A stretch of DNA of 64,000 nt from Aquila chrysaetos chrysaetos (Eukaryota; Chordata; Aves; Accipitriformes; Accipitridae), in assembly GCF_900496995.4 (NCBI RefSeq), contig NW_024470384.1, positions 186,001 to 250,000 of the forward strand, given 5' to 3'. The notes under the pieces were generated by a model that ran no database searches, was not told where the DNA came from, and saw only the letters and a program-made list of their open reading frames with translations. Position numbers and translations under genes: made by a program. Shown here in pieces: positions 20,033 to 52,215 of this stretch; the first letter of the stretch is position 1, and the number at the start of each line of letters is the position of its first letter.

Positions 20033-20765
20033 GCACACGCGTGTGAGCGTGGGTCCCAGCACACGTCCCGGTGCACACGCGTGTGAGCACAGGCCCCAGC
20101 ACACGTCCCAGTGCACACGCGTGTGAGCACAGGCTCTGGTCATGTCCTGGTGAACACGCGTGTGAGCACAGGCTCTGGTCATATCCCTGTGAACATGCGT
20201 GTGTGAGCACAGGCTCCAGTTGTGTCCCAGTGAACACGCGTGTGAGCACAGGCCCCAGCACGTGTCCAGGTGAACACGTGTGAGCACAGGCTCTGGTCAT
20301 GTCCCTGTGAACATATGTGTGTGAGCACAGGCTCTGGTTGTGTCCTAGTGAACGCGTGTGTGAGCACAGGCCCCAGCACGTATCCAGGTGCACACGCGTG
20401 TGAGCACAGGCCCCAGCACGTGTCCTGGTGCACATGCGTGTGAGCACATGCCCCAGCATGTGTCCCAGTGCACACGTGTGTGAGCACAGGCTCTGGTCAT
20501 GTCCTGGTGAACACGCGTGTGAGCACAGGCTCTGGTCGTATCCCTGTGAACATGCATGCGTGAGCACAGGCTCTGGTTGTGTCCCAGTGAACACGTGTGA
20601 GCACAGGCCCCAGCACACGTCCCGGTGCACACGTGTGTGAGCACGGGCCCCAGCACATGTCCACGTGCACACGCATGTGAGCACGGGCTCTGGTCACGTC
20701 CTGGTGAACACGTGTGTGAACACAGGCCGCAGCACAGCTCTGGGTGCACACGCGTGTGATCCCAG
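20033..20765. repeat. 40-bp VNTR (ACACGCGTGTGAGCACAGGC unit)
   Basis: About 18 copies of a 40-41-bp unit. The anchor GTGTGAGC falls at 20041, 20081, 20121, 20160 and so on to about 20760. Units alternate between GGCCCCAGCACA and GGCTCTGGTCAT variants. It lies in the JUNB-HOOK2 spacer and creates long stop-free frames on both strands that are not genes. Confidence 0.9.
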
Positions 20766-20959: not shown

Positions 20960-22767
20960 CTTCCCTCCCCGCGCCCCGGCATCGCACACCCGCGCTCAGC
21001 ACACGGGACCCCCCAGCCTGAGTCCCCCAGGACGCCCCTGCCCGGCGGGAGACCCAGGCGTCCGGGCGGGGCGGACGCGGGTTAACGAGCGGCGTGTCCC
21101 GGCCTGCCAGGGCGGGGCAGGGACGCACACACGTGTGCATGCATGAGGACATGTGTGCGGGGTGGCGGCACGGGGGTCCCCCCCACCCAGTCTCGGCCAC
21201 ATGCTAATGCCCCGCGCTGCCGGCAGCCCCCGGGGCTTTCCAGGGGGGACCCGGGCATCCGGGCCCCGCCCCCACCCTGGATTTTAGGGGATTTTGGGGC
21301 CGTCTCATTTTCCCTCCTGACTTCTCCTTCCCCACAAGCAGCCCCTGAGTCAGGCCCGGCCGGACCCCCTGCTGTGACCCCTGGGGATCCGGGTGTCCCG
21401 GGCCCCCCTGCCCCAGTTCTACCCCCCCATGGGGGAAACTGAGGCGGGGGGGGGTGTTAGACCTGGATGCCTTGGTCCCCTGGCTGCGCCCTCCCCATGC
21501 CAGGAAGTGACGGGAGCAGGAAGTCGGGGGGGGGGGGGGTGAAGGAGGGGGGGTGGCAGCTCTTACCCCGATGCCGGGGTCCTCCAGCTGCAGGGGCTGG
21601 GCCTGGGGGGCCGCGGGGGGGCCTGGGCCCGGGGAGGTCTCAGGTTCCCCCCACACCCCCCCCAGTGCCTCTCACTTGGCATCACCTTTGGGTGCCCAAC
21701 GGCCCCAACGGCCGCAGCTGCCACCGGGTTTTCGGTGCGGGGGGGGGGGGCTGCCCGCTCAGGGGACCCAGGCGTCCAAGGCCAGGGCCTGTGAACCCCC
21801 CCCACCCCCAGGGGACCCAGGCATCCGGCACCGTCCCCCCACCACAGGCAGTGGGGCGAGAATCCACCCATCTGGGCCAACCCCCCCCCTGCAAACTGCG
21901 AGTCCTGGGGGGACTGGGACTAACTGGGGGGAGTGACCATGCACCTGAGGGTGGGGTGGAGCGAGGCTGGGGGGGATGGGGGCTCTGGGGGGGGGTGGCT
22001 CAGGGGGACCCAGGAGTCCCTTGGGAACCCGGAGGCCCCGTGGGGTGGGAATTTCCCAGCATGCCCTGGGCCTGGACGCCTGGGCTCACAGTAGTGGCAA
22101 CAACCGGGGGGGGGCACTGGGAGGGTCTTGGGGCCAGACTGGGGGCACTGGGGGTGCACTGGGACACGGTGGGGCAGGGGCAAAGCTCCATTGGGAGCAC
22201 TGGGATGTCCCCAGGGCTCTACTGGGAGCACTGGGGGGTTTCCAGGGCTCTACTGTGAGCACTGGGGTATCCCCAGGACTGCACTGGGAGTGCTGGGGGG
22301 GTCTCCCGAACCGCAGTGGGAGCACGGGGGGGGGGGGGGTCCCGGACTCCCCCCGTCCCGGAACCGGAAGTGCCGCCGCGGGGGTAGAAGCAGCGCGCGC
22401 TGGCGTTGCCATGGCGATGCCGCTGACACCCCCCACCCCCCCTTGGACGCCTGGGTCCCCTGGGGCCGGTTCCCGCCGCCCGCCCCACGCCGGTGACGCA
22501 ACCGGAGTCACCGAGTTCGTCGCTGACGTCACGGAGGCGGTGCCGCCAATCCCGCCCCGCAGGGGAAACGGCCCGGCCTGACCCCGCGCGGCCCCGGCGC
22601 CGTCCCCCCCCCCCCTTCCCCGGCCCCCCCCCGCACCTGGCGGCTGCCGGTCCCCGACGGGGCGGGGCGGGCCCGGCCGAGCAGACGGGAGCGGCCGGAG
22701 GGGCGGGGGCGGGCGGTGACGCGGCGCTGAGTCAGCGGCGGGGCCGGGAGGGGCGGTGCTGGGCGCC
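20960..22767. other. JUNB-HOOK2 intergenic region
   Basis: No gene was recognised. The stretch has repeated copies of the dispersed GGACCCAGGCGTCCGGG-type motif, a ~40-bp GGGAGCACTGGG minisatellite at about 22190-22335, long G-runs, and from about 22480 a CpG island leading into the HOOK2 promoter array. Confidence 0.5.
22725..22737. promoter_or_regulatory. MARE-like palindrome
   Basis: CGCTGAGTCAGCG is a perfect 13-bp palindrome with the TGCTGAGTCAGCA core bound by Maf/NRF2/AP-1 dimers. It lies 30-40 bp before the HOOK2 promoter array. Confidence 0.55.
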
Positions 22768-23440
22768 AAGATGGCGGCGGAGGCGGGGCCGAACAGGGGC
22801 GGGGCCGGCAGGGGCGGCCCCTCTAGGCGGAGCTCGAGAGCACAGGCGGACCGCCCCAAGATGGCGGCGGAGGCGGGGCCGAAGAGGGGCGGGGCCAGAA
22901 GCTGCGGCCGCTCTGGGCGTGGTACTCTGTAGCCCTGGAGGACCGTCTCCAATATGGCGGCGGGGCGTGGCCGAAAGGGGCGTGGCGAGCAGGTGAGGCC
23001 GCTCTGGCCGCATCTCTGTAGCCCTGGAGGCCCGGCTCCAAAATGGCGGGGGGGCGGGGCCGGAAGGGGCGGGACGAGCCTGTGAGGCCGCTCTCGTCAC
23101 GACTCTGTAGCCCTGGAGGCCCGGTCCTGATAGAGCGGAGGGGCGGGGCCGGAAGGGGCGTGGCGAGCAGGTGAGGCCGCTCTCGCCACGACTCTGTAGC
23201 CCTGGAGGCCCGGTCCTGATAGAGCGGAGGGGCGGGGCCGGAAGGGGCGTGGCGAGCAGGTGAGGCCCGCTCTCGCCCACGACTCTGTAGCCCTGGAGGC
23301 CCGGTCCCGAGAGAGCGGAGGGGCGAGGCCGGAAGGGGGCGGGGCAGGCAGGTGCAGCCGCTCTGGGCGCGGCTCGGTGCCCCTGGCGGACCGGCCCTGA
23401 GATGGCGGCCACGGCGGCGGGGCGGGATGCGTGTGGGCCG
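22768..23440 (+). promoter_or_regulatory. HOOK2: Eight-unit ~90-bp promoter array ending in HOOK2 exon 1
   Basis: Equivalent ATG/ATA/AGA landmarks at 22771, 22861, 22954, 23043, 23130, 23219, 23310 and 23402 give 87-93-bp spacing. Early units carry AAGATGGCGGC (YY1 consensus) and all carry GGGGCGGGGCC-like Sp1 boxes, a GCCGCTCT block and a CCTGGAGG block. The eighth unit's ATG is the HOOK2 start codon and its GGCCGCTGCTCACC block is coding. Confidence 0.88.
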
Positions 23441-26400
23441 CTGCTCACCTGGGTAAGGGGGGGCCGGGACCCCCCCGGACCCCCCGAGACCTTGTCGGGC
23501 CCGTGTGACTCCCTCGGGCACCCCCGCGCCCGTGTGATCTCCCTGCCAGGTCCCCCGTACCCCCTGAACCCCCCCAGGCGCTTTCTGCGGCCTGGTGACC
23601 CCCCCGAGCACCCCCGGCACCCTGTGACACCCCCCCCCACCCCCCCCCAGGCCCTGTGATTCCTCTCGGGTACCTGCTGAGCCCTTGTGACCCCCCCCCT
23701 AGCACCCAGTGACCCACCTGGTGCCCTTTGCCCCCAGCTAATGTGGGGGGGGTTAACAGGGGGGGCAGCCCAGTGGGGTCTACCCTATGCCTAGGAGAAT
23801 GTTGCTGAGGGTAAAAAGGGGGGGCCTGCCCCCCCCTGCAGTGCTTTGGGGGGCTTGTGCAGGTTTGGGGGCTCCCCTGCCTGCAAGGGAGGCATTGGTG
23901 TATGGGGGGGGGGGCAGGACACGAGTTGTCTGTTCTCAGCCCTGAGCAGGTCCAGGGGAGCTGTTTTGGGGGTAGCCATGCCCTGACCCCCCACTTTGTG
24001 CCCCCCAGCTGCAGACCTTCGCCCCCCCCCTCGCCCTGTGCCTCCCCCCAGGACCTGGCTAGTGGGGTGGCCCTCGCCCACGTCCTGCACAGCATGTGAG
24101 TGGCAGGGGGACACTGCCCCCCCACTTTGGGGACACCCTTAGGGCCCCCCAAAGGGGTCTGGGGCACCCCCAGGTGGGGGCAGTGTGGCAGGAGGGGACC
24201 TGATTTTGGGAACCACCCTGTGCCCCCCAGCGACGCCTTGTGGTTCAACGAGACATGGCTGGGCCGGATCCGGGATGACGCTGAGGATAACTGGCGGCTG
24301 AAGGTGGGGGGGGCACGTGTTGGGGGGGGGCATGTTTGCAGGGGGGACACTTCTATGTGTGTTTTGGGGGGGTAATTCTCAGCCTTTGGTCTGCTCTGGG
24401 GCGTGAGAAGGGAGAATGGAGGTTTTGGAAGTGTTGGTTTGGGGTGGTCTGGGGGCAGCTTGTTTGGGGGGGATGTTTTGGGGGACGCAATGCAGGGGCT
24501 GATTGGGAGAGCTGGTTTTGGGGGGTTCAGTTGGGGAGGGCCATTTTGGGGAAACCTGAGGCAGGGCCACAGCAGTGCGGGGGGGTATTTTGGGGGTATG
24601 GGGGAGTTCCCAGCTTTCCCCCACACACACAGGTGAGCAACCTGCGGAAGGTGCTGCAAAGCGTCCTGGAGTACTGGCAGGACGTGAGTGTGGGGGTGCG
24701 CGGGGGACCCAGGCATCCGGGCCCCCCGTTTTGGGGTGGGGAGGTTCCCCAGAGGGGGGGCTGACCTTGCCCCCCCCCCTTCCTGGCCCCCCAGGTGCTG
24801 GGCCAGGCGGTGGCGGAGCAGCACGTGCCCGACGTGGCGCTGGCAGCCCAGCACGCCGACCCAGAGCAACTGGGCAAACTGGTGCGACTGGTGCTGGGGT
24901 GCGCTGTGAGCTGCGAGAGGCGGGAAGGTGGGTGCAGGGCTGGGGGGCCCCCACCCCCCTGAAATGCCCCTTGACCCCCCTAACCCCCCCCACATCTCCC
25001 CTTTGCAGAACATATCCAGCGCATCATGACACTGGAGGAGTCGGTGCAGCACGTGGTGATGATGGCCATCCAGGAGGTGGGGGTGGTTTGAGGGTCCCCA
25101 GGGAGCTGTTGGGGGTCCCCAGGAGGTGTTGGGGGCCCTAGGCGGGTCGGGGGGAACAGGAGAGGTTGGGGGTCCCTGTGGGTTGGGCTCAGGGAGATTT
25201 TGGGGCATCTTGGGGGCCTGAGAGTGAATGGGGCCAGAGAGCTCTGTAGGAAGGTTTTTGGGGGTGGTTCTTGGGGGATTTTGGGGAAGCCCTGGGTGTT
25301 ATGGGGGGGGCCTGAAGAGCCCCCGCAAACCCCATTTTGTGATTTTTTCCTTCATACAGCTTTTGGATAAAGAGCCGTCAGAGACGATGGCAGTGGAGAC
25401 GTATGGGAACTTTGACACACAGGTAGAGGGATGGGGGGGGCAGACTGGGGGGGCTGTGTGCAGGGATAGGGGAGCAAGGCCAGGGTCAGTGGGGGACAAC
25501 TGCGGTAGGAGCGTTTGGCAGGGGGGGATGCAGGGAGCCCCGAGGCTGGGGTAGGCTGGGGATTGTTGGGGAGGAACAGAGAACGGTTGAGGGGGTTTGG
25601 GGGTGTCTGGGTGACCCCCCAGCACTGACACCCCCCCCGCCTTTTCCTTTTTGCAGTCACGGCGCTATTACTTTCTGAGCGAGGAGCCCGAGGAGGCCGG
25701 GGGACCGCAGCAGCGCTGCCTTGAGCTGGAGCAGCAGGTGGGGCCCGGATGGCTGGGTCCTCCTGGTGGGTGCTGGGGGTCCCCCGATCATCTGGGTCTC
25801 CCAGTGCTGTTCCCTCCCCATTTCTAGAACTGGGGCGAGGGCACCCAAAGCAGTAATGCTGAGCGGGAGAGGATTTTTTGCTGTCCCCTATGAGGGTTGG
25901 GCGCAGACACCCAGTGAGACCCCGCTGGGATGGGAGCCCGGACACCCGGGTCCCCTCCCGGACACCTGGGTCCTGCTGGCGCGGGGCAGGTGGCGGTGCT
26001 GCTGGAGGAGAAGGGCAGCCTGGCGGAGGAGAACCGGGCGCTGCGGGAGGAGAAGGCGCAGCTGGAGGCCGACGCCACCGGCGCTACCGCCAAGAAGCTG
26101 CTGTTGCTGCAGACGCAGGTGGAGCAGCTGCAGGAGGAGAATTACCGGTAGGACCTGGATGCCTGGGTCCCCTGGGCAGGGGGAGGGGGCCAGCCCGGGT
26201 GCCTGGGTCCCTTAGCAGGGGGGTCACCCCGATTTCTGGGGTCTGGGTTTTGTGCCAGAGAGAACAAAACGGGGGTCAGGGGAGCAAGGTGCATCCCGCA
26301 CCCCTGTGCCGCGGGGGTGCCCCTGACGCCGGGGTCCCCCTGCGCAGGCTGGAGAGCGGGAAGGAGGAGCTGCGGGAACGCTGCAACCGGCTGGAGAGGG

Positions 26401-40635: not shown

Positions 40636-47398
<6,763 letters not shown>

Positions 47399-52054: not shown

Positions 52055-52215
52055 TCTTCAAGATGGCGGCGTGCAGCTGTACGGCAGAGAGCGGGGGGGG
52101 GGGGGGCAGCAAGATGGCGGCGCGCAGCCGCAGTGTGCGGCGCGGCGCTGGTGGGGGCGGGCCAAGATGGCAGCGCGCAGCGGCGGCGCGGCAGAGTGAA
52201 GGCGGCCGGAGCCCC
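52055..52215 (+). promoter_or_regulatory. DHPS: DHPS core promoter with three AAGATGG elements
   Basis: AAGATGGCGGC at 52060-52070 and 52111-52121, and AAGATGGCAGC at 52164, are about 50 bp apart. They fit the YY1 promoter element that often overlaps transcription starts of housekeeping genes. All three ATGs are in frame with the chosen DHPS start. Confidence 0.7.

Follow-up and report, generated by a model that had tools for sequence, protein, structure and literature searches.

In Aquila chrysaetos chrysaetos, the HOOK2 gene seems to begin inside a promoter minisatellite that arose by local tandem duplication of the gene's own core-promoter/start-codon module, with Sp/KLF and YY1 sites that would feed one downstream start. 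Judging from the DNA sequence, we give this reading a probability of roughly 0.6. The duplicated module, about 89 bp long, would comprise a TISU/YY1 motif that surrounds an ATG, then GC boxes and a spacer. The initial annotation of this window (64,000 nucleotides, whose numbering is used throughout) had proposed the amplification of such a module, and this proposal is supported: the array is real, a genome search finds it at this locus only and the start codon lies within it.

Tandem Repeats Finder (TRF) reported an array at 22762-23409 on the plus strand, with a period of 89, 7.2 copies, 82% match and a score of 624, thus head-to-tail units in the range of about 10-100 bp that is typical of a minisatellite. 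Self-identity at lag 89 was 0.589, compared to a mean of 0.334 over lags 60-119 and a maximum of 0.405 in 300 dinucleotide shuffles. In 100 shuffles of 22501-23900, TRF detected no array of period ≥30 (score ≥50). The array had first been described as eight copies of about 90 bp; TRF and the shuffles confirm the tandem array but not eight full copies, as there are seven full units and the start of an eighth. It sits inside a CpG island whose end lies past exon 1, and CpG o/e is 0.78-0.82 in units 1-7. ATGs are found in the array at 22771, 22861, 22954, 23043 and 23402. The features of the region are:

22500..22761, plus strand: upstream CpG-island DNA, with a CRE at 22524 and an AP-1 site at 22728
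22768..22857, plus strand: unit 1, full TISU match from 22767, ATG at 22771, GC-box-type site
22858..22949, plus strand: unit 2, full TISU match from 22857, ATG at 22861
22950..23038, plus strand: unit 3, AATATGGCGGC, ATG at 22954
22954-22992, plus strand: unit 3 segment of 13 codons (39 nt), then a donor-like CAG/GTGAGG at 22993, phase 0
23039..23127, plus strand: unit 4, AAAATGGCGGG, ATG at 23043
23128..23216, plus strand: unit 5, ATG/YY1 core lost (GATAGAGCGG), donor-like CAG/GTGAGG at 23171
23217..23306, plus strand: unit 6, reading GATAGAGCGG, donor-like site at 23260
23307..23397, plus strand: unit 7, GAGAGAGCGG, diverged
23398..23409, plus strand: start of unit 8, TGAGATGGCGGC, with the HOOK2 start codon at 23402-23404
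23402..23452, plus strand: HOOK2 coding exon 1, MAATAAGRDACGPLLTW, 51 nt, ending in phase 0, with the donor GTAAGG at 23453

Pairwise identity of the aligned units 1-7 ranges from 68 to 100%, and likeness tends to rise with proximity. Divergence is greatest in units 1 and 7, at the two ends, and unit 3 is as close as 0.85 to units 5 and 6, slightly above the 0.83 to its own neighbours. As read from these alignments, this is the pattern usually seen when a minisatellite turns over through exchange between its units. Unit 6 shows no substitution relative to unit 5 over 88 aligned bases, the only differences being single-base C indels, and this near-identity in one genome suggests recent turnover. 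The left edge of the array is not sharp, since 22680-22761 matches the GC-box part of unit 1 (1 of 500 randomised sequences was as good); no further ATG unit was found in this flank. Elsewhere in the window, the reading frame of HOOK2 exon 2 seems to shift by one base at a run of nine Cs (24022-24030), and the N-terminal part and the bZIP of the neighbouring JUNB-like gene lie in different frames. Assembly errors at homopolymers are likely behind these frame slips and behind the C indels of unit 6.

The motif repeated in the array corresponds to an element known as TISU, with the consensus SAASATGGCGGC (PMC5577775). TISU is a YY1-dependent transcription element, acting through its positions 5-11, and at the same time a translation initiator for very short 5'UTRs (PMC2518114). 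In a TISU promoter, the element is expected within about +30 of the transcription start. By its letters, the repeated motif is TISU, which is the better name for it, and AAGATGGCGGC is its core. The first two units had been said to carry a YY1 consensus around an ATG, which is correct: AAGATGGCGGC is present in both, and both match TISU at 12 of 12 positions (exactly, at 22767 and 22857). Units 3 and 4 had been taken for one-base variants of this sequence. This applies to unit 3 (AATATGGCGGC), whereas unit 4 (AAAATGGCGGG) is two bases off. The loss of the ATG in later units takes the form originally given, GATAGAGCGG, in units 5 and 6, but unit 7 differs (GAGAGAGCGG). Altogether, the ATGGCGG core is kept in units 3, 4 and 8 and is gone from units 5-7. 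The copy at the HOOK2 start keeps ATGGCGGC and agrees with TISU at 10 of 12 positions (by eye), and is therefore weaker than those of units 1 and 2. Thus, a degenerate copy, at 23402, serves as the translation start and the two exact copies do not.

The other recurrent element is a GC-box-type site (GGGGCGKGG), of which each of units 1-7 holds at least one. Mean pairwise identity between units is 0.74 for the ATG/TISU block; the least conserved block reaches 0.65, and the remaining four reach 0.82, 0.85, 0.84 and 0.79. The GC-box and GGCCGCT blocks (0.82-0.85) are thus better conserved than the one around the ATG, so that no special constraint on the TISU copies is apparent. Units 5-7, in addition, share an altered ATG block, so that the loss may be a single inherited event and is weak evidence for selection.

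This lack of special conservation fits a neutral minisatellite, in which GC-rich promoters on small, repeat-rich chromosomes simply gain tandem duplications by recombination, with no regulatory effect. Such an explanation also finds support in the surroundings, as eight distinct arrays of score ≥150 occur in the 64-kb window versus two in 20 loci of 9.9 kb each (198 kb, contigs C1-C3), 8 of these 20 having been picked for close motif sites. Furthermore, birds lack PRDM9 and their recombination is elevated at promoters and CpG islands, and one study describes tandem repeats as abundant at avian promoters (PMC10781513). On the other hand, none of units 1-7 has lost its GC-box-type site, and units 1-4 retain an intact TISU core. 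We regard neutrality as possible but doubtful. In the preferred reading of a duplicated promoter module, the array would itself stem from unequal exchange or gene conversion at a CpG-island promoter, for which avian promoter recombination would be a plausible cause.

How far the array reaches into the gene was assessed at the start codon. After the in-frame TAG at 23288, the ATG at 23402 is the only one in frame. The segment 23360-23409, ending in ATGGCGGC, aligned to 22762-23340 better than any of 500 randomised sequences, hence the array includes the start codon and the coding letters that directly follow it, up to 23409. Both observations bear out the view that the ATG of the last unit is HOOK2's own start. 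The following segment (23410-23460, the remainder of the exon and 8 intron bases) showed no significant homology to the array, 45 of 500 randomised sequences being as good. A GGCCGCT block of the array had also been described as translated: the letters are indeed in exon 1, at 23436-23442, but the stretch that holds them has no significant homology to the array.

The identity of the gene rests on two levels of evidence. Firstly, hand-joined exons match HOOK_N of Pfam at 4.4e-59, which confirms the HOOK family. Their best PDB matches are HOOK1 and HOOK3 structures, and neither kind of match discriminates between HOOK1, HOOK2 and HOOK3. Secondly, the neighbouring genes argue for HOOK2 rather than HOOK1 or HOOK3. 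The order is an RNASEH2A-like gene (minus strand, RNase_HII), a JUNB-like bZIP gene (minus), the array, HOOK2 (plus), ArsA_ATPase/GET3 and Bestrophin (minus), and SNORD41 at 43779, the only Rfam match at gathering threshold in the 64-kb window. We take this order to agree with the human 19p13 neighbourhood. The naming of the gene as HOOK2 in the initial annotation is supported by this neighbourhood. A divergent gene that would use the array as its own promoter was also considered and rejected: the upstream JUNB-like gene (bZIP, minus strand) is about 3 kb away, and its start codon and a TATA-like site were placed by eye near 19.68 kb and at 19.76 kb, respectively. Six long minus-strand open reading frames around the array gave no Pfam match. 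The interval between JUNB and HOOK2 contains another minisatellite, at 20033-20759, in which a 40-bp unit occurs 18 times. Its distance upstream of the JUNB-like start is a few hundred bases.

When 22924-23400 was searched against the 1.23-Gb genome (144 contigs), two matches were obtained, both the array itself; the search skips very common words, so that this count is a lower bound. As the unit was found only at the HOOK2 locus, it was amplified locally, and an origin from a dispersed repeat or a retrotransposon is rejected on this search. The same result bears on the suggestion that the HOOK2 coding exon had been captured by a pre-existing dispersed repeat. Here, the unit is indeed repetitive and has an ATG of its own, but its matches are confined to this locus and the arrays at other genes described below are built from different units. 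Hence capture, already proposed in the initial annotation, receives almost no credence from us.

In a next level of analysis, the motif itself was counted. AAGATGGCGGC occurs 433 times forward and 433 times reverse in the genome, an odd equality, and its reversed control 17 and 17 times. Same-strand pairs gave 17 matches at a gap of 30-60 and 11 at a gap of 61-90, which merge into 18 loci, a lower bound as only exact motifs were used. Inverted pairs at a gap of 30-60, the range tested, were absent (0 convergent, 0 divergent), and pairs of ETS motifs at the same gap likewise numbered 0 forward and 0 reverse, a count without a single-site denominator. The same-strand bias is partly expected because TISU is oriented to the gene, and alone it is no proof of duplication. 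TRF arrays with at least two motif copies were present at 6/18 pair loci and 0/12 single-site loci, where the groups differ by the selection on copy number and all 12 controls lie on contig C1. With this restriction, the difference speaks against neutrality. At the other 12 pair loci, the motif may have recurred independently or been duplicated long ago. Four of the 18 pair loci are on contigs of less than 400 kb; the HOOK2 contig (C92) measures 367,739 bp, of which the window covers 186001-250000.

Gene starts were assigned for HOOK2, TANGO6, NOP53, COG1, TPGS1, VPS16 and DHPS, the other 11 of the 18 loci being outside this set. As far as the start assignments go, the start codon is the last motif copy at HOOK2, TANGO6, NOP53 and COG1, and probably also at TPGS1. 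In the case of TANGO6 (L035), the start codon comes 45 bp after the last motif of a 47-bp array, and TANGO6_N (PF25267) is in frame from the ATG. In the case of NOP53 (L041), the array has a 33-bp unit and the start codon lies 66 bp past its last motif. The NOP53 exon-1 peptide matches NOP53 of 8fkz at 3.4e-11; it has no Pfam match, and Nop53 downstream stays below the Pfam cut-off. Unlike at HOOK2, the TRF arrays of TANGO6 and NOP53 end before the start codon. At COG1 (L042), there are two motif copies, the second of which provides the start codon; PF08700 is in frame, but the N-terminus found no PDB match and TRF detected no array at the locus. TPGS1 (L046), the start of which we presume from the peptide MAAYEKRR, has several motif copies and no TRF array. 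No Pfam match is in frame from its ATG, and TPGS1_C lies downstream in another frame.

At the genes that we take from their start peptides to be VPS16 (L040) and DHPS (near 52.2 kb of the window), the motif copies lie upstream of a different ATG. At 52060-52174, two exact AAGATGGCGGC and a third copy, AAGATGGCAGC, precede the DHPS-like start (Pfam DS downstream), with no TRF array. The VPS16-like promoter (C95:95488, about 1484-1601 of L040) contains CCGTGCCCTCACTCAAGATGGCGGCGG three times with unequal spacers, which looks like an initiator and TISU duplicated as one block; TRF missed this visible repeat. Two further loci were noted. L031 (C2:55783881) has at 1448-1687 a 46-bp array of 5.2 copies and 98% match, with AAGATGGCGGCCATTTTG in four units on the minus strand of the stored locus. 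L037 (C12:31884637) has four AAGATGGCGGC copies at 1501-1625, and their spacing of 34, 46 and 34 bp suggests the duplication of a dimer.

Regarding function, the cluster of Sp/KLF sites and the four upstream YY1 cores would raise or buffer initiation near the 3' end of the array, and translation of HOOK2 would begin at the last copy. Since units 5-7, the ones next to the start, have no ATG, leaders that begin in or after unit 5 would be free of upstream start codons. Transcripts that begin at units 1-4 would first encounter an AUG in strong context, opening reading frames of 53, 23, 43 and 43 aa, respectively, all of which stop before 23402. In reporter tests, TISU AUGs allowed no detectable leakage (PMC2518114), and in JPX the AUG within TISU contributes to the repression of downstream translation (PMC5577775). 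Given these short reading frames and the lack of leakage, one would not expect extra starts in units 1-4 simply to yield more HOOK2 protein. The earlier idea of a graded promoter, in which each unit acts as a start site, loses weight with the short reading frames of units 1-4 and the missing YY1 core of units 5-7, although it keeps some possibility. It is likelier that the upstream copies would bind YY1 and Sp1 on behalf of a start close to the last copy, by analogy with the tandem YY1 monomers of mouse L1 Tf, which act synergistically (PMC11602158). The GC skew changes from -0.26 in 22500-22655 to +0.41 in 22656-22761, and being positive from 22656 it would also allow a transcription start upstream of unit 1.

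The donor-like sites of the array raise yet another explanation, namely several functional starts with alternative first exons. CAGGTGAGG, which agrees with 6 of 7 scored donor positions, is present in units 3, 5 and 6. Only unit 3 offers an in-phase splicing exit, at 22993: its 39-nt segment and the 51-nt exon 1 both end in phase 0, so that splicing to exon 2 would yield another HOOK2 N-terminus. Such an agreement in phase has a one-in-three chance, however, and the donors were duplicated together with the rest of the unit. Moreover, units 5 and 6 have the donor without an ATG, while units 1 and 2 have the ATG without such a donor. Alternative first exons thus appear distinctly improbable, and one start near the last copy remains the preferred reading.

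The HOOK2 array is a variant of known things, i.e. promoter minisatellites, TISU and YY1 arrays. Promoter minisatellites, or variable tandem repeats, are GC-rich tandem arrays at promoters; at HOOK2, the unit is the gene's own start-codon module. The promoter unit of mouse L1 Tf measures about 200 bp, and imprinting is, to our knowledge, not expected in birds. Mouse L1 Tf resembles the array in its head-to-tail promoter units and in YY1 sites acting together (PMC11602158, PMC9022269), which here is a prediction; its units belong to a retrotransposon, whereas at HOOK2 a single host-gene locus is concerned and no dispersed copies were found. Repeats of the imprinted Peg3/Gnas regions, described in PMC3091771, are also tandem and contain YY1 sites. 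Similarly, the HOOK2 array lies in a CpG island and repeats YY1 motifs in tandem (the ATGGCGG core occurs in units 1-4 and 8), but it ends in a start codon. With TISU it shares SAASATGGCGGC at the start codon on the sense strand (PMC2518114), in full in units 1-2 and as the core in units 3, 4 and 8. It differs by its tandem copies and by a start copy of 10/12, and the word 'tandem' is absent from the text of PMC2518114. No prior report of TISU/YY1 tandem arrays at start codons was among the matches listed, which does not prove absence.

What lifts the HOOK2 array above a curiosity is that several other genes of this genome show a similar layout. One could go further and see in the bird TISU/YY1 start modules a recurrent class of promoter minisatellites, self-amplified upstream, expandable, tuning output and occasionally giving alternative first exons (as HOOK2 unit 3 might), a generalisation that we put forward as speculative and rather unlikely to hold. 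TISU couples the positions of transcription start and translation start. Each extra transcribed TISU adds a strong upstream AUG, so that duplication should normally be costly. The arrays of HOOK2, TANGO6 and NOP53 and the multiple copies of COG1 and TPGS1 form a natural series, in which the gain of YY1 sites versus that of upstream start codons becomes testable. The same series bears on whether promoter recombination in birds, which have no PRDM9, makes core promoters into minisatellites.
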